Below are positions 31,374 to 45,660 of a DNA stretch of 64,000 bases, one piece after another. The stretch spans positions 1 through 64,000 of IMG/VR virus record IMGVR_UViG_3300006737_000020, one strand, 5' to 3'. Source of the DNA: a virus. Within the stretch, counting starts at the first letter, position 1. Each line of letters starts with the position of its first letter. Under the pieces are notes generated by a model. The model made no database searches, had not been told where the DNA came from, and saw only the letters and a program-made list of their open reading frames with translations. Position numbers and translations under genes: made by a program.

Positions 31374-33056
31374 TTATATAGTATCCAATCCATCTACATG
31401 AATCTTACCATAGAATTCTGGTCTTACCATTTTCTTAGCATATCTAGTCATTACACCTTTTCTTGGAGTGAATGAAGCTGGATCATATACTAATGGAGTC
31501 ATGATAAGTGGAATGTATGGAGCATAAACTGCACCAGTTTCAAGGAATTGAGCTCCTCTATATCCCATAAGAATTGTATTCTCAGTCATGTATGGGTTTT
31601 TATAAACTTGGAATCTACTATTAATAGAACCAACTTTTTGTACACCCATTGCAAACTGCATTTTATCACCATCTGTATCAGCAGCATATCCAGGAATAGA
31701 TTCTAGGATAGTTGCAACAGTTGGAGAACATACTAGGAAGTTTGCACCACCTCTTAATGTTAACTGGTGAATTTTGTTACTTACTTTCTGGATTTTAGTT
31801 CCTAAAGTTTGGAACCAAGTACCTTGGTTGTAAGCTGCAGAATTTCCAGCTGTATTAGAGAATGTTGTCAACGTTGAATCATATTCAAAGCCTAATCTTG
31901 CTGACCAGAAGTCAGTAGTTTGAGCATTTTGCATTAACATATCTAATAATTCTAAATCAATTTCTTGCGAAACGTATTCAGATAACATAGAAGTTAATTC
32001 AGCCTCAGCATCAATTGAATGATAAGCATTCAAGTCTTGAGCAAATTCTGGAGTCCAGATTGCTTTTAACTTTCTTGTCTTAGCAACAATCGCCTCAGAT
32101 CTCATCTCTAGGTTGATTTCTGGAATAGCTAAAGCAGAATTAGATGCACCTGAATCTTGTGATTGATCTTCAAAGTCACCTCTTGAAGTATCACCAGGTT
32201 GCTTCTGGTAAGTAATTGTACCGTTCTCAACAGCTGCAGTTGCTACAGATGATTTAACTAAGAATGATACTTTTGGTGTAGCACTTGCTAGACCAGTATT
32301 TCCTGATACAGTAGTAAATTGAGGATAATAAGTCTCAATTCCTGAACCTGAAATTTGGAATGCTCTAACACCATTTGCATCAGCTAAATCAGAAGCTGCA
32401 AATGTAAAGTCTACAGTTGTTAATTGACCGATTCCAACAGATGCAGCAGCTAATGAAGCAGAAAATTCTGAATCATGATTAGTTCTTTGCTCAAAAGTTG
32501 TTTGAGTAAATGCTGAACCTGTTACAATGTTAGTACCAACAACACCAGTTGCAGTTACTTTGTTTCCTAATGATGTTTCGTTAACTGAATAACCAAATCT
32601 ACCTGCGCCATAAAGACCTTCAGTAGCTACGGTTGATCCTAACGTATCATCAGTTACACCGAATACAGAATCGTTTTGTGAATCTTTACCAGAGTTTGTA
32701 GTAAATCCTGGTTGGTTGGTCCCATACTTGAAATCAAGGAAGAATACTAGACCAGAAGGTAAGTTCATTGGTTGTACACTTACAAAATCTTTAGCAGCAA
32801 TCTCAGCAAAAATTCTTCTTACCAATGGTAATGCTACACCTGACCACTCTTCTGAGTTTGCAGATGTACCTGTAGAATTTGCTTCTGATACTAATTGTTT
32901 TGCTTGGTTTTCCAATAGAACTGCCATTCCTGACTTTTCATATTCTTTACCTAAACCTTCAAGAAGACCAGTTCTTTCCCATTTTCTAACCAAACCTGCT
33001 GTAGCAGCTTTTGATTTAGCAACGGAATCATTTGGCATTAATGAATTTATATCCAT
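31374..33056 (-). CDS. 23: Major capsid protein, gp23-like
   Basis: The 560-residue protein has the HK97-type T4 gp23 pattern. A helical N-terminal region of about 58 residues is followed by EEWSGVALPLVRRIFAEIAA and FVSVQPMNLPSGLVFFLDF. Later come EMRSEAIVAKTRKLKAIWTP, EFAQDLNAYHSIDAEAEL and a C-terminal YMTENTILMGYRGAQFLETG. T4 gp23 is trimmed after Glu65 by the prohead protease; likely equivalents here are LVSE|A at 58/59 or LLE|G at 33/34. The ribosome binding site AAAAGGAGA is strong. It follows the scaffold gene by 20 bases and is followed by a hairpin terminator, as suits a very abundant product. Confidence 0.94.
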   Translation of the reverse strand: MDINSLMPNDSVAKSKAATAGLVRKWERTGLLEGLGKEYEKSGMAVLLENQAKQLVSEANSTGTSANSEEWSGVALPLVRRIFAEIAAKDFVSVQPMNLPSGLVFFLDFKYGTNQPGFTTNSGKDSQNDSVFGVTDDTLGSTVATEGLYGAGRFGYSVNETSLGNKVTATGVVGTNIVTGSAFTQTTFEQRTNHDSEFSASLAAASVGIGQLTTVDFTFAASDLADANGVRAFQISGSGIETYYPQFTTVSGNTGLASATPKVSFLVKSSVATAAVENGTITYQKQPGDTSRGDFEDQSQDSGASNSALAIPEINLEMRSEAIVAKTRKLKAIWTPEFAQDLNAYHSIDAEAELTSMLSEYVSQEIDLELLDMLMQNAQTTDFWSARLGFEYDSTLTTFSNTAGNSAAYNQGTWFQTLGTKIQKVSNKIHQLTLRGGANFLVCSPTVATILESIPGYAADTDGDKMQFAMGVQKVGSINSRFQVYKNPYMTENTILMGYRGAQFLETGAVYAPYIPLIMTPLVYDPASFTPRKGVMTRYAKKMVRPEFYGKIHVDGLDTI

Positions 33057-35855: not shown

Positions 35856-36461
35856 TTAGTACTCCTTAATTATATCAGTTATTAATTTATTTACATTTGC
35901 ATATTTATCAAATTGTTTTTTTGATTTTCCTTCATTTACTGGAGATAAAAATGCTCCATGAGTTGATGGATTTGAAACAAAGTCAAATGCAATTAGTTCA
36001 AAATCAGGCTGAACTTCTAATGTATCATCACCTTCTCTCATTACTTCTTTTACAGATCCCATACCTCTTGATGATATACCTAATCTAATACCTGATTTGA
36101 ATAGTTCTTTTAAAATGTTACCTGCAGGAGTACCTAATACTTCTACAGTTCCAACTAAATCATCACCTTGCCAATTCATACCTAAAACGTTATGACTTAC
36201 ATTATTTAAATTAACTACAGATGAATCTGGATGATCTAATTCTCCAAGAGCTCTCTTTTCTTTAATAAATCCTTCAGCATATTTATTTGCTTCTCTCATT
36301 AAAGTTTCTTTTGGATATATTCTTCCATTTTGATTCTTTGATTCAGCTCTTTGCAGAACTCCAGAAACAATTAATTTTCCGCCATTTTTAGATAGACTTT
36401 CATTAATTTGTTGAGGAGTTATCTCAAATGTTTGATAATTAACTAATAATTGCTTTGCCAT
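35856..36461 (-). CDS. 21: Prohead core protease, gp21-like
   Basis: The 201-residue protein matches T4-type prohead proteases, serine proteases of the herpesvirus assemblin-like fold. Features include GGKLIVSGVLQRAESKNQNG, RIYPKETL, GELDHPDS with His77, LGISSRGMG with Ser130/Ser131, and FDFVSNPSTHGAFL. The His in a D-H-P setting and the Ser in an S-R-G setting are the expected catalytic residues. The enzyme cuts capsid and core proteins after L/I-x-E during head maturation. A self-cleavage site INE|S is present at 21/22. The ribosome binding site AGGAGA is clear. It lies between portal-side genes and the scaffold, as in T4. Confidence 0.93.
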   Translation of the reverse strand: MAKQLLVNYQTFEITPQQINESLSKNGGKLIVSGVLQRAESKNQNGRIYPKETLMREANKYAEGFIKEKRALGELDHPDSSVVNLNNVSHNVLGMNWQGDDLVGTVEVLGTPAGNILKELFKSGIRLGISSRGMGSVKEVMREGDDTLEVQPDFELIAFDFVSNPSTHGAFLSPVNEGKSKKQFDKYANVNKLITDIIKEY

Positions 36462-40158: not shown

Positions 40159-41742
40159 CTATAAAAGCCAGGTTAAATCGTCGTTGTCTTTATCTCCACT
40201 CTTCCAATCCCATCCTGAACCTTTTAAGTCTGTTTTTGTTGAATATACTCCTTCTGATGTCTTTCCTATACCGCCTAATGATTTTCTATTTAAATCCATA
40301 CCTTGTTGATGAAGTCTTAATGCTGTATCTCTCATCCATAATCCTGTTGCAAATGACATTACTAAATCATCATTATAGCCCCTTGCAGCTTCTGCTCTAT
40401 GCCCTAACCAAATAAATGTAAATAATTCATCTACTAATCTTTTTGAATGAACCAATGGTGTTTTATCTCTAAAATATGTTTCTAATTTAGATATTACTAA
40501 TGGACGAGTTCTTGATGTCATTGAAAATCCAGGAACTTTTTGTGATTTCTTTTTTAAATCATATCCTTTCTTCAAGTGTATTTCCTCATCTAAGTATCCA
40601 TCTTGTTTATAAGAATAGTATAGATTTTGGTATCCTTTGTCTAATGCTACCTGAATGGATGCCCATCCTATATTTGCATTTTCAATAACTAGTAATGCAT
40701 TATTATATTCTGTTGCAACTGATATTAACATATTACCATATTCGGTAGTTCCTATTTTACCTCTATATTCTGCAACTTGTTTACATTGTTCTGTATCAAA
40801 TACATGGAATGCAGAGTAATCAGTTGAATCTCCTCTTGCAACGTCAGCTACAACCATATATGATTTTGAATAATTTGGATATTCCCATATCCAATAATTT
40901 CCATCCATTCCTCGCTTTTCAATTGGATCTTTAACATATGTTTCCTGATACCATTGTAGTATTTCTCCATCTACTACTGTATGTCCAGATGATATAAAAT
41001 CACAGTCACATTCTTGAGCGGCCATTTTCTCACCTAACAATTCTGTTTGTTTATCTCGCCAAGCTTGATCTCTATCTGGATGTACTGTCCAATGTAATGA
41101 TATATTATTAAATTCTCCGCCTGCAGTTGCTTCTACCCATTGTTTATGAAACCAATTACCAACTCCATTAGGTGTAGATAATGCAATACAATCTCCACCA
41201 GTTGCTAATGTTTGTTGAGCGGCTGTCCATATATCATCAATTTTATCAATAAATGCTGCTTCATCAAATATCAATAATGATAATGCTTCAGATCTACCTG
41301 CATCACCTTTTGATGATATGGCCTTTATTTGCGACCCATTACTTAATCTTAATGAAAGTTTATTATCTTCAGCAACTGCCCCCTTTAACCATTTAGGTAA
41401 GTTTTCATGCATTACTCTAACCTTTGTTACAAGGTTCTTTGCAACATCTTGTTTAGTTGCAATTACTAGACAGTTAAAATCTGCCTTAAATAACATTTTC
41501 CATAATGCATATCCGGCTGTTAAAGTTGAAATTCCTAACTGTCTAGACTTAAGAATAATATTATATCTATTTTGAGATATCTGTGTTAATGATTCTTCTT
41601 GGAATGGATACAGATTAAAATATATTTTTCCTTGAGTAGGATGTTGAATTATACAGTATTTACGCATAAAGTGTATAGGATCTTGTACACACTTCTTATA
41701 TTCATCGCGTATGATTTCTTTTAATGTTTTCTTTACTGACAT
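40159..41742 (-). CDS. terL: Terminase large subunit, gp17-like
   Basis: The 527-residue protein has both terminase domains. The ATPase part shows LKSRQLGISTLTAG (66-73 as the Walker A position) and LLIFDEAAFID with Asp160-Glu161 (Walker B and catalytic Glu), followed by the coupling motif ALSTPNG. The nuclease part shows MVVADVARGDSTDYSAF (Asp300), LLVIENANIG (Glu354) and RGYNDDLVMSFA with the third acidic position. Terminase pumps DNA into the prohead through the portal. The Walker A segment has Ile where T4 gp17 has Lys (T4 SRQLGKTT, here SRQLGIST), a variation discussed under findings. I see no clear small terminase gene in the window. Confidence 0.95.
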   Translation of the reverse strand: MSVKKTLKEIIRDEYKKCVQDPIHFMRKYCIIQHPTQGKIYFNLYPFQEESLTQISQNRYNIILKSRQLGISTLTAGYALWKMLFKADFNCLVIATKQDVAKNLVTKVRVMHENLPKWLKGAVAEDNKLSLRLSNGSQIKAISSKGDAGRSEALSLLIFDEAAFIDKIDDIWTAAQQTLATGGDCIALSTPNGVGNWFHKQWVEATAGGEFNNISLHWTVHPDRDQAWRDKQTELLGEKMAAQECDCDFISSGHTVVDGEILQWYQETYVKDPIEKRGMDGNYWIWEYPNYSKSYMVVADVARGDSTDYSAFHVFDTEQCKQVAEYRGKIGTTEYGNMLISVATEYNNALLVIENANIGWASIQVALDKGYQNLYYSYKQDGYLDEEIHLKKGYDLKKKSQKVPGFSMTSRTRPLVISKLETYFRDKTPLVHSKRLVDELFTFIWLGHRAEAARGYNDDLVMSFATGLWMRDTALRLHQQGMDLNRKSLGGIGKTSEGVYSTKTDLKGSGWDWKSGDKDNDDLTWLL

Positions 41743-42859: not shown

Positions 42860-43171
42860 TTAAACTTCTTGATCCCTACCAGATCTTTTTGCAGCTGCTT
42901 TCATCTTTACCAATTGACTTCTTAGTTGAGCCACTTTATTAATTGGTAAACCTACTTCATCTGCAAATCTTGCAATGGCTTGAGCTTTTTCAATATCTGT
43001 TTTCAACATATTTAAAAATCTAGATAATCCTTTTCTTTCTAAATATTGAAAAATTCTAGACACTTTTTGTCTTTCAGATCCACCTAAACCAGAACCATAC
43101 TTTGATGGAGCTTCTTTAAGTGTTCTACGAATTTCAGTTCTTATTGCTTTTCTTAAATTTTCTTCGTTCAT
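42860..43171 (-). CDS. Small helical protein with LKE|A leader, candidate packaged protein
   Basis: The 103-residue protein starts MNEENLRKAIRTEIRRTLKE followed by A21. The first 20 residues form a basic amphipathic helix ending in the prohead protease consensus LKE|A. The rest is helical and basic (SRIFQYLERKGLSRFLNML, then KAQAIARFADEVGLPINKVA) and would fit a small DNA-binding or core protein. It follows the mosaic nucleotidyltransferase gene and has its own promoter-like motif 20 bases upstream. Small terminase is an alternative for a small helical protein here, but nothing specific supports it. Confidence 0.66.
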   Translation of the reverse strand: MNEENLRKAIRTEIRRTLKEAPSKYGSGLGGSERQKVSRIFQYLERKGLSRFLNMLKTDIEKAQAIARFADEVGLPINKVAQLRSQLVKMKAAAKRSGRDQEV

Positions 43172-43200: not shown

Positions 43201-45660
43201 CTACTTATCGCCAAGTCCGCCTATTCCTAACAATTGATTGATAGGAGCAAATAAACCTGTTAATTTATATGTTTTTCCTTTATATACAAATACTATACCC
43301 TCTGTTGGCACTAATTTTTCAAATCCACCTAAATCTTCAATACGTTTTAATTCAAACTTTAATTTGTCAAGTGACGCTAAATCCTTAGATTTCTGTATGA
43401 CTTTGATTTTTGCAGCTATCCGCCTTTTCATATCCTTTATTGCATCTGTAGGAACAATTGATAAATAATCTGATATATTATGTAGTATTTCAACTCCTAA
43501 TTCTAAAAAGATTTTTTCAAAATTATATACATTTTGTTTGTTTTGTTGTTTAAAATTTTGTTTATCAAATTCTTTAGCTTTTTGTAATATTTCTGGATCA
43601 GGTATATTTTTTGAATTCATTCTAAATGATTTATCAAAATATGCCCATCTTTTTAATAATCCTAATTTTATATCATCTGTTGCATTAGGTATTATTTGAT
43701 TTATTCTTACTTCCCACCATTTTTGATGCCACATTTTTAATTCATCTGAATCCTTTAATTTGAATTGAGATTGTAAGGATGTTACTTGATCTATAAAATA
43801 TTTTTCCTTTTCTTCAAAATCAGGTAATTGTTTTGTAGTTAGAATTTTAGGTGGAATTATTTCAAATCGCTTTTGTATATTTGCATTAACATTGGCTATT
43901 GTTTTTTGTAATAATGGTGCATATTCAGGATATGAATCAACTTTAACTGCTAATTCTAAATCATATTCATCTACTCCATGAAATTGTATATATGCCTTTG
44001 GTCCATACATTATAACATTTTGAGTTCCTGGGTATATAATTTCCATGTTTAAAAATCTTGAACCGTTTTGAAATATTTCAAATAATTTATCTTTTGGTAC
44101 TCTTAATAATGCGCGTTCTAAATCTTCCATTGCAAATGTAAAAGCTTTTTCTATTTCACCTCTACCTGCAAATTTCATTCTAACAGCATCAATATCCATT
44201 GGATTCTTAATTGTAGTTTTGTTTCTTGCTGCTCCAAGTTTACCATCTTTAAAAGTAACTAATAAATTTTGTCCGTCTGTTTTTTCTTGAACTCCAGATT
44301 CAATATTTAATTTACCTTCTAATGATAATCGTATCATTTGTTTCATATCCGCAAATGTAATATCTCTATCATCAAATGGATGATTCATGTGTCCGGCTGC
44401 TCCACCCTCTGTTAATAACTGTAATGCAATTGATTCTCCTAATGATTTAGGTTTTGGTTCTTGTGGCATAATTCTAAATCTTGCTGCAGACCTACCATTA
44501 ATTAATAAGTCTCCTTTATCATTAAAATTAATTGTTTTCACTACTACCTTTTTATTTTTAAATCTACCCATCATAATTGTATCGCCGATATTGATTGGTA
44601 AATTAATATCTTCTTTTAATGTAGTTGGCACTAATATCTCTCCTTTACTTGATTCAATAGAATCTTCTGCTCCTAAAAAATCTAAAAATTTATATCCTAC
44701 AGATTGAGCAATATTTGAAATATAACTCTTCCATTTTGAATACCCAGGCCTTCCTTTGTAATCTTTAATATAATCTGTACCAGAAAACTCTCCTCCCTTG
44801 ACACCTGTTGGAAAGTATGATACTGTCAATGGTGGTCCATCTGGAAAATTTGTATTATGAACTTCAATAGGATTATCCTTTACAATATAATTTATAACTT
44901 CATATCCTAAACGTTTTGCCATGGCATCTGTTTTCTTTCTATATGTATTCTGATTTCCATAAAAGTATCTTGGTCCATCATCTACATCAGCTTTACCTTG
45001 GCCTGTAACATTACTTCCTTCTTTAACTATAAATGATTCCATTATTGCAGAAAACTTTTTTCTTAATAACTGATATATTTTTGGATCATACCAGCCCATT
45101 ATATTTTTAAATGTTTTCATGTCTGCGGTTGCCAATGCGGCTCTAATTGTTGTACCTGACATTTCACCAAATCCTGGTACTTTTAACTCTATATGCGGTG
45201 ATATAACAACGTATCCATGTTTATCATATCCTTTTAGATTTGATTTAGACTTTGCAAAATCCTGGAAATAACCAGGTGAACCATCTTTTTTTGTATATCT
45301 TAATCTTCCTGCATCTTTTTTTCCATATACAAATACCACTGCAGTAGTTTCAGGATTATATTTTTTTAATATATTTTCTGGAGCATAAACATTTTTTTCT
45401 TGAGAAACATTTGTTATTCCATGTTTTCTAATTACCTGAACCTTTTCTCGAAAGTTTAATGGAGATTTTGGCAATGCAACTTTATCTGATGTTGCAATAT
45501 ATGTATTTTGTTTTCCAAATTGTTTTGCTAACCAGTCATATACTTTTGCATGATGTTGACCCATTGGTTGAAATCTACCTGGATATATTGCCACTACGGT
45601 TTTAATCGGAGAATCCATTTCCGTTAATAAATTGTCTACTATTTGTTCACCTAAATTCAT
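43201..45660 (-). CDS. Mosaic protein: nucleotidyltransferase domain plus ligase-like domain joined by leader-like peptides
   Basis: The 819-residue protein appears to be several units in one. Residues 1-14 (MNLGEQIVDNLLTE) form a leader-like helix. Residues 20-200 are a cytidylyl/NMN-adenylyltransferase-like domain with YPGRFQPMGQHHAKVYDWL and the SGTTIRAAL motif. A second leader-like stretch (FSAIMESFIVKEG) precedes a domain at 216-345, then a small beta unit (355-400). LGESIALQLLTEGG (407-420) nearly repeats the N-terminal leader and ends in a prohead protease consensus, LTE|G. Residues 440-819 have the ligase/nucleotidyltransferase hallmark QEKTDGQN (Lys460) and a motif III-like FLNMEIIYP. 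The first His of the HxGH motif is replaced. A packaged polyprotein cut by the protease is my inference. Confidence 0.68.
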   Translation of the reverse strand: MNLGEQIVDNLLTEMDSPIKTVVAIYPGRFQPMGQHHAKVYDWLAKQFGKQNTYIATSDKVALPKSPLNFREKVQVIRKHGITNVSQEKNVYAPENILKKYNPETTAVVFVYGKKDAGRLRYTKKDGSPGYFQDFAKSKSNLKGYDKHGYVVISPHIELKVPGFGEMSGTTIRAALATADMKTFKNIMGWYDPKIYQLLRKKFSAIMESFIVKEGSNVTGQGKADVDDGPRYFYGNQNTYRKKTDAMAKRLGYEVINYIVKDNPIEVHNTNFPDGPPLTVSYFPTGVKGGEFSGTDYIKDYKGRPGYSKWKSYISNIAQSVGYKFLDFLGAEDSIESSKGEILVPTTLKEDINLPINIGDTIMMGRFKNKKVVVKTINFNDKGDLLINGRSAARFRIMPQEPKPKSLGESIALQLLTEGGAAGHMNHPFDDRDITFADMKQMIRLSLEGKLNIESGVQEKTDGQNLLVTFKDGKLGAARNKTTIKNPMDIDAVRMKFAGRGEIEKAFTFAMEDLERALLRVPKDKLFEIFQNGSRFLNMEIIYPGTQNVIMYGPKAYIQFHGVDEYDLELAVKVDSYPEYAPLLQKTIANVNANIQKRFEIIPPKILTTKQLPDFEEKEKYFIDQVTSLQSQFKLKDSDELKMWHQKWWEVRINQIIPNATDDIKLGLLKRWAYFDKSFRMNSKNIPDPEILQKAKEFDKQNFKQQNKQNVYNFEKIFLELGVEILHNISDYLSIVPTDAIKDMKRRIAAKIKVIQKSKDLASLDKLKFELKRIEDLGGFEKLVPTEGIVFVYKGKTYKLTGLFAPINQLLGIGGLGDK

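Follow-up and report, generated by a model that had tools for sequence, protein, structure and literature searches.

Why would a phage place several unlike domains in one long chain, and why would the leader of that chain be nearly repeated in its interior? The question is posed by an 819-residue protein encoded in the virus record IMGVR_UViG_3300006737_000020 of IMG/VR, a record of 103,223 bases of which the first 64 kb (positions 1 to 64,000) are the stretch analyzed here, called the window. The open reading frame (ORF) is genuine and occupies positions 43201-45660 on the minus strand (45660..43201); a chance reading of the opposite strand was rejected, the plus strand being full of stops. 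An initial annotation had proposed several separately targeted proteins fused into one chain and perhaps cut apart by the prohead protease. Following up on this idea, we consider it likely that the chain is packaged in the head as a polyprotein and cut by the prohead protease of a phage that appears to be marine and T4-like.

Modules and the joints between them

The chain begins with a short leader and continues with four modules, D1 to D4, the last of them preceded by a second leader (Table 1). Residues 3-14, LGEQIVDNLLTE, recur as LGESIALQLLTE at residues 407-418 with 8 of 12 positions identical, a value reached by 1 of 400 shuffles of the whole protein. The near-repeat reported by the initial annotation is thus real and its position was exact. 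TTLKE ends at residue 350 and KTDG is found at 460-463; ESFIVKE ends at residue 214 and not at 215. In the full-length AlphaFold model D1 and D4 are confident, and the predicted local distance difference test (pLDDT) falls below 50 for residues 208-305, 330-354 and 396-426. The second leader forms a short helix (407-417) within the last of these stretches. D2 is at low confidence in the same model and no fold is claimed for it. Distinct modules with leader or Leu-x-Glu (LxE) stretches at their boundaries are supported, and in the model the internal leaders lie in low-confidence linkers and were not seen as integral parts of a single fold. Cleavage at the predicted sites would give products of 22.7, 15.1, 7.6 and 46.2 kDa (D1, D2, D3 with the second leader, and D4), three of them basic (isoelectric points 9.8, 9.9 and 9.0) and D2 at 6.8.

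LxE alone was rejected as evidence, as it occurs 14 times in the window protein and is present in 34% of random 24-residue segments of family proteins (1451/4280). Since the motif is common by chance, the signal has to be that relatives keep it at a set place in their module junctions. These were surveyed in 280 loci, overlapping stretches of the same contigs included, with five profile hidden Markov models, giving 286 ORFs and, minus contained copies, 214. The viral-contig scans contributed the best 80 of 531 (D4), 460 (D3) and 590 (D5, a further module of the family) relatives, so that the counts describe close relatives. The first ATG was taken as ORF start, which may misplace some leaders; junction counts include only copies with a recognised anchor pattern, and distinct junctions still share ancestry.

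Ahead of D4, Glu occupies position -1 in 112 of 130 distinct internal junctions, always as [LIVMF]xE and directly before GG, and is absent from positions -4 to -2 and 0 to +10. The linkers that end there are mostly unrelated, with a median pairwise identity of 8% compared with 83% over the 12 residues after the junction, and fall into 57 clusters (single linkage, 42% identity), 47 with LxE, 8 with Met and 2 with Cys. De-duplication over 15 residues underlies the 130 D4 junctions, whereas de-duplication over 12 residues leaves 124. Similarly, LxE stands at 21 of 21 D5 junctions, 15 of them in one linker cluster, and at the start of 68 of 74 internal D3 copies, compared with 0-6 of 72-74 in six shifted control windows. 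All 120 recognised D2 copies have it within 25 residues ahead of the anchor, 117 at 8-15 residues. In a kinase-like module it lies exactly 11 residues before the P-loop stretch (8/8), and in a CCA-type nucleotidyltransferase module 26-31 residues before VGGAVRD (7/7). In D1-first genes it comes ahead of the domain core in 76 cases out of 78. The pattern is weaker for internal D1, with LxE within 24 residues in 33 of 38 copies, to be read against the 34% of random segments.

T4 provides the yardstick for these joints (a slash marks the cut): gp23 carries FLTE65/A, gp24 LLRE10/S, and ipII and ipIII FIAE10/A. The removed lengths that passages of PMC9958956 state for gp23 and gp24 agree with the FLTE65 and LLRE10 sites. 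In T4 IPIII, an Asp at the cleaved position inhibits processing (a passage of PMC9026906). Judged by sequence, the D4 junction sites have the form of T4 gp21 sites. A targeting leader is much rarer: a simple pattern, which may miss some cases, finds the N-terminal type at 12 of 142 internal D4/D5 junctions and a TKxWW type at 29. The constant feature is hence the LxE cleavage form and not a leader. The four internal leaders as separate targeting signals were accordingly rejected, and the notion that each module is separately targeted is not supported in that form.

The junctions that lack Glu are informative in their own right. Of the 124 D4 junctions, 16 are of this kind, 14 reading [KR]ELLLM/GG and 2 LLxC/GG. 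The Met codon of ELLLM is an in-frame ATG, and a Shine-Dalgarno 4-mer lies upstream in 11 of 14 distinct cases as opposed to 15 of 108 E junctions. Counting copies, 19 of 25 ELLLM junctions have the 4-mer, whereas among the remaining in-frame ATGs in family ORFs it is found at 379 of 4225; at the same loci it precedes 42 of 93 ORF starts and 382 of 4960 ATGs of any kind. From these sequence features the ELLLM ATG is probably an internal translation start for D4, and it coincides exactly with the position of the LxE site in other members. Internal starts are annotated in T4 too, within genes 17 and 21. Six D4 genes have no leader at all, four starting MGG and two MGT (L063, L061); they remain from eight rows with D4 first after exclusion of two truncated fragments (L107, L175). 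The free N-terminal GG of D4 thus seems to be reached in three ways, by an LxE site, by an internal start and by the start of a separate gene. The GG itself belongs to D4, because it is the invariant start of this module in 77 of 77 sequences (alignment A8) and because four leaderless relatives start MGG. Its earlier description as part of a perfect protease site was rejected on these grounds.

One might ask whether the LLxE stretch is no protease site but the intrinsic first element of the D4 fold, as the retention of LLL in the ELLLM junctions would allow. We regard this as very improbable. The stretch is missing from all six leaderless D4 starts, the same form stands ahead of D5, D3, D2, kinase and CCA modules, and the full-length model gives it a pLDDT below 50, whereas D4 without it folds at 94.6.

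The modules themselves are extensively shuffled. D2 and D3 are conserved across the family (alignments A1, A2), and the 214 ORFs show more than 10 module orders, the most frequent being D3-D1-D2-D4 (32), D1-D2-D4 (29) and D1-D2-D3-D4 (26), followed by D4 without the other four modules (20) and D1-D2-D3-D5 (16). Smaller classes are D1-D4 (9), D1-D3-D2-D4 (6), D4-D1 (6), D1-D2-D5 (4) and D5-D1 (2), in addition to rarer or truncated ones. Short inserts such as PSPSRKxVKKMKxKGxTSVPYGSGYKK and KKRGYEPV recur between LxE sites in different chains (L266, L193, L178, L034), like exchangeable internal peptides.

A more conservative explanation of such chains is an uncut, multifunctional cytoplasmic enzyme, whose modules jointly form one protein of NAD or RNA metabolism and in which LxE is merely a linker habit. 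It draws on the constant coupling of NMN adenylyltransferase (NMNAT; NMN, nicotinamide mononucleotide)-like and ligase-like modules, which are fused without a leader in some relatives. A loose pattern finds a GxFxP..H motif ahead of D4 in all 17 D4-only ORFs examined (complete 5' end, more than 150 residues upstream). Nevertheless, we hold this explanation to be unlikely, given the same motif at a fixed position despite mostly unrelated linkers, the replacement of Glu by ATG in another group, usually with a Shine-Dalgarno sequence, the permuted module order and the location of the gene near the terminase gene. Two D4-only ORFs (L226, L257) carry a different NMNAT-like N-terminal domain (PGGFKPITGAH) and other modules ahead of D4.

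Enzyme-like modules and their possible purpose

Both domain types named by the initial annotation, a nucleotidyltransferase-like and a ligase-like one, were recovered as folds in D1 and D4. With the full-length model, the 50 VIA places listed were all taken up by one domain, and no ligase match for D4 was among them. Folded alone with AlphaFold2 on 77 sequences, D4 reaches a pLDDT of 94.6 and a predicted template modelling score (pTM) of 0.90. Places 1-5 of the Foldseek search are all RNA or tRNA ligases, the top match being T4 RNA ligase 1 (9do4, E 6.9e-4). With VIA, places 1-23 are likewise all RNA or tRNA ligases, among them Naegleria RNA ligase (Z 9.5, root-mean-square deviation (rmsd) 3.8, 186 residues aligned) and T4 Rnl1 (Z 8.6, rmsd 3.9, 181 aligned); further down, DNA ligases (from place 24, Z 7.4) and then capping enzymes appear among them. 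These matches have low TM-scores (about 0.2-0.3) and align over about half of D4. K460, E787 and K799 fall in invariant columns of alignment A6, and alignment A8 has E41, K42, D44, G45, E369, G370 and K381 invariant. We take KxDG to be motif I, EG motif IV and the last Lys motif V of covalent nucleotidyltransferases. In its model, D4 has an RNA-ligase fold with catalytic-type residues kept, and ligase activity is predicted. Among cellular genomes D4 was found in just 3 metagenome-assembled contigs of 22 pattern hits, so that no cellular function can be read from them.

D1 matches PHROG cytidyltransferase families (phrog_395, 1.4e-7), and its model is nearest to NMN/nicotinate mononucleotide (NaMN) and pantetheine-phosphate adenylyltransferases (VIA Z 11-12, 141-168 residues aligned, rmsd 2.6-5.2; Foldseek 1k4k, 2.5e-4). 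Chains of NMNAT, NaMN adenylyltransferase (NaMNAT) and pantetheine-phosphate adenylyltransferase (PPAT) tie, and the fold leaves the substrate open between them. Two stretches, GRFQPMGQHH (28-37) and SGTTIR (168-173), stand at the places of HxGH and SGTxxR, the active-site motifs of NMN/NaMN adenylyltransferases; some family members read HKGH, HSGH or similar at the HxGH position. For the whole window protein, the Pfam matches were limited to CTP_transf_like, below threshold, and a single hit at chance level, and a PDB sequence search with this protein returned no ligase.

In other members the place of D4 in the chain is occupied by D5, which is DUF6267 (PF19782), a relative's D5 matching at 5.8e-96; PF19782 is not among the Pfam matches of the window protein. 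A profile comparison did not show homology of D4 and D5 (E 0.042, probability 1.2%), and a PDB sequence search with the D5 profile returned no ligase. Further modules come with the longer chains. The longest member (1846 residues) has an extra poly(A)-polymerase/CCA-type nucleotidyltransferase (2.9e-29); elsewhere the addition is a P-loop kinase-like module, an HD domain or a domain of the RNA_ligase family (PF09414). A scan of 39 of the 61 proteins of at least 900 residues found CTP_transf_like in 25, AAA_33 in 10, PolyA_pol in 7 and HD in 2. In L066 (7986-9302), L191 (870-2498) and L193, where it follows D3, a module with a KNRDR stretch stands behind an upstream Cys. To us this module resembles an Ntn-hydrolase; no Ntn-hydrolase family matched it in the family scans of relatives.

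What might such a set be for? If the protein is packaged and cut, RNA repair is in our view its somewhat favored purpose; it is less certain than processing itself, and is suggested by the fold of D4 together with the company of kinase-like and CCA-type modules. A packaged chain cut by the prohead protease could instead serve NAD+ supply or another early takeover of the host, a reading that differs in purpose only and that we consider rather unlikely. The resemblance of D1 to NMN/NaMN adenylyltransferases speaks for it, and passages of PMC9602691 and PMC10665884 read virion NMNATs as acting on NAD+. The RNA-ligase fold of D4 with its catalytic-type residues speaks for RNA repair instead, as do the tRNA-nucleotidyltransferase (7/39) and P-loop kinase-like (10/39) modules of long relatives. 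Because RNA repair is only somewhat favored once processing is granted, the two readings overlap, and NAD+ supply by D1 might be an alternative to RNA repair or an addition to it.

Separate genes, virions and a proposed route

Looking for the segments as separate genes with a leader of the same kind was fruitful. Genes with only D5 have leaders such as MKTFAEFLTE/(D), MKFTEFLTE/ and MQSFKQYLSE/, and the T4 ipIII leader MKTYQEFIAE/A resembles the 10-residue leaders of several D5-only relatives. LxE lies at most 14 residues from the module in 62 of the 66 D5 modules that have a Met upstream, mostly D5-only ORFs and some of them internal; three of the remaining four start M[GA]KA. In the Pelagibacter phage HTVC008M (L072 5929-10122) the neighboring genes gp127-gp130 encode D5, D3, a P-loop kinase-like protein and an annotated cytidyltransferase, an arrangement with nearly the same modules left unfused. 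The kinase gene starts MIPFILKE/GLYDPGIFKA, the same junction as within polyproteins. Among isolates, the Microcystis phage Mel-JY01 also carries the family, with IIAE/GGLGGHM at the junction. In the cyanophage S-PM2, the GC190 gene contains the C-terminal part of a D5 module and, after it, an NMNAT-like stretch, GRFNPPTTGH. The D1 profile picked up neither this stretch nor HTVC008M gp130, which leaves the D5 match, the annotation and the motif as the basis of the link in these two phages.

Published virion data touch the same proteins. Passages of PMC3037559 list T4-GC190, a cyanophage core cluster of putative cytidylyltransferases, as detected in S-SM1 virions. NMNAT-like proteins in virions of S-CBWM1, S-SCSM1 and S-SZBM1 and a cytidylyltransferase in S-CREM2 are described in parts of PMC9602691 and PMC10665884, and a passage of the former allows that the virion NMNAT-like proteins may have stayed in suspension after CsCl purification.

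From the module identities and their shuffling, the junction motif with its alternatives, and the gene context, all read in sequences and models, we infer a route from expression to injection. The gene would be expressed together with the head and packaging genes, and the 14-residue leader would target the precursor to the prohead core. There the T4-type prohead protease (35856-36461) would cut after hydrophobic-x-Glu at E14, E214, E350 and E418, releasing an NMN-adenylyltransferase-like enzyme of about 23 kDa, D2 of about 15 kDa, D3 with the second leader of about 8 kDa, and a putative RNA ligase of about 46 kDa with the N-terminus GGAAGHM. The products would be packaged and then injected along with the phage DNA. 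The likeliest task for them would be to repair RNA, probably tRNA, that host defences cleave during the first minutes of infection. In its widest form the idea is that T4-like phages use the prohead protease as animal viruses use polyprotein proteases: a packaged chain would yield exchangeable RNA-repair enzymes (ligase, end-healing kinase, tRNA 3'-end nucleotidyltransferase and adenylyltransferase), host tRNA would be mended before any phage gene is expressed, and some members would use an internal start instead to obtain the same ligase N-terminus. This wider form is tentative, its chances slightly short of even.

Several observations weigh against packaging, cutting or RNA repair. LxE is common and also found inside modules (in D5 at +10 in 21/21), and the protease would have to spare these sites. 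Glu is frequent before D4 at -6 (44/130, 35 of them LxE) and -5 (29/130) as well, so the linkers are Glu-rich there. Two D4 junctions end in Cys, 5 of 38 internal D1 copies are without a nearby LxE, leaders are missing from the six D4-first relatives and from some few that begin with D5, and T4 ipI does not have LxE at its tenth residue. As regards the enzymes, the best VIA Z-score of D4 is 9.5 and a single Foldseek match lies below 0.001; D4 carries a large helical insertion between the ligase motifs and matches no RNA-ligase family by sequence, either in Pfam or in a PDB sequence search with the D4 profile. The HxGH position of D1 reads GQHH, without the first His, with SGTTIR retained. PolyA_pol found no match in the phage's own record, which may be incomplete, so that its repair kit is at most partial. 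Finally, the related genes of S-PM2 and HTVC008M adjoin replication genes. Taken together, the core of the initial annotation holds and its interpretation as a whole is supported in part.

Gene neighborhood and known systems

In the window, genes for the terminase large subunit, portal protein, head maturation protease and major head protein lie on the same strand as the ORF (Table 1). The major head protein has an LxE-type site, KQLVSE58/A, near the place of FLTE65/A in T4 gp23. Among 161 family loci a terminase relative is present in 136, at a median distance of 1.7 kb. Within the locus stretches sampled, relatives of the protease (8/161) and of the head protein (0/161) are uninformative on the linkage of either. 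The small neighbor gene has a relative in 12 of 161 loci at a median distance of 17.5 bases, and its start suggests that it may encode a further packaged protein. Other small proteins of this phage have LRKxIR-like or KDLLNE-like leaders ending in LxE; going by these leaders, they may be further head cargo. A signal-peptide protein (L069 8044-8451, minus strand) resembles, in our estimation, a small outer-membrane beta-barrel and is perhaps a hint of a Bacteroidetes host. As a whole the window protein matches only 4 of 50,697 phage records, with S-PM2, HTVC008M and Melnitz not among them.

Table 1. Positions of the modules, neighboring genes and related features (window coordinates unless a locus is named)
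Feature	Position	Strand	Remarks
N-terminal leader, residues 1-14, MNLGEQIVDNLLTE	45619..45660	-	capsid-targeting-sequence (CTS)-like; predicted cut after E14 (LLTE14)
D1, residues 15-214	45019..45618	-	NMN/pantetheine-adenylyltransferase-like; ends at predicted site IVKE214/G
D2, residues 215-350	44611..45018	-	conserved module, DDGPRYFYGN...; ends at predicted site TLKE350/D
D3, residues 351-406	44443..44610	-	small beta unit, LPINIGDTIMMGRFKNKKVVVK...
Internal (second) leader, residues 407-418, LGESIALQLLTE	44407..44442	-	predicted cut after E418
D4, residues 419-819	43204..44406	-	RNA-ligase-fold module; KTDG 460-463, EGIV from E787, K799
Prohead (head maturation) protease, gp21-like	35856..36461	-	phrog_207 7e-54; proposed processing enzyme
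Major head protein	31374..33056	-	phrog_138 2e-72
Terminase large subunit	40159..41742	-	phrog_5989 5.2e-47, phrog_2 3.4e-44
Small neighbor gene, 103 aa	42860..43171	-	CTS-like start MNEENLRKAIRTEIRRTLKE/A
Proteins with LRKxIR-/KDLLNE-like leaders	window 42860-43171; L069 8904-9299, 11988-12938, 16716-17264; L068 13027-13512	all -	
ELLLM-type junction loci (n=14)	L193, L178, L173, L189, L199, L195, L157, L169, L035, L154, L201, L275, L269, L271		

How does this arrangement compare with systems already described? T4 makes its RNA ligases after infection. With T4 RNA ligase 1/2 and tRNA repair with Pnkp, D4 has its fold and motif set in common, but it carries an extra helical region between the motifs and is predicted virion cargo. 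The T4 internal proteins IPI-III and Alt share the logic of injection, with a short N-terminal leader ending in hydrophobic-x-Glu and a prohead protease in the genome. Each of them, however, is one cargo that loses terminal propeptides (according to passages of PMC9026906), whereas here several enzymes would share one chain with internal sites. In giant phages such as phiKZ and SPN3US packaged proteins are cut after x-Glu, in some at several places per protein; the cuts described in the passages at hand remove propeptides, and a single chain releasing several enzymes is not reported in them (PMC10052503, PMC5694885).

Polyvalent proteins (Iyer et al. 2017, PMC5512222, considered in part) likewise combine many unlike enzymatic domains in a virion-borne chain with shuffled architectures and presumed injection. 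Several unlike domains per chain are found here as well, with D1 and D4 recognised by fold and PolyA_pol, AAA_33 and HD in relatives. In the relevant passages their processing is ascribed to fused zincin-like peptidases, a common but not obligatory theme, in contrast to the prohead-protease-type junction sites of the present family. Pfam and PHROG found no peptidase family in the window protein, zincin-like ones included; one relative (L064) has a weak match to the metallo-protease family phrog_87 (0.0017). The same passages did not see an RNA-ligase association for 2H domains, whereas RNA ends are the theme here. Cyanophage T4-GC190 and its DUF6267 neighbors share the link of an NMNAT-like stretch to D5 and, for GC190, the presence in virions (PMC3037559, in part), but in S-PM2, HTVC008M and Melnitz the modules occupy genes of their own or two-part genes, close to those for replication.

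Packaged internal proteins, gp21 processing and injected multi-enzyme polyvalent proteins are thus known already (parts of PMC9026906, PMC9958956, PMC5512222). A search of the open-access literature, judged mostly from listings and passages, found no enzyme polyprotein cut at LxE. Two features are new with respect to the literature searched: a polyprotein of shuffled enzyme modules whose joints carry prohead-protease-type sites, and an internal start as a substitute for such a site.

If the proposed route is true, phage capsid maturation would double as a polyprotein-processing step. RNA repair would begin at injection and not after early expression, and would let the phage respond to tRNA-cutting defences from the first minute. 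The junction rule, an LxE site followed by a module start, would make virion cargo readable in many uncultured marine phages. It would also offer a testable role for cyanophage virion proteins such as T4-GC190 and for the functionally unexplained DUF6267.

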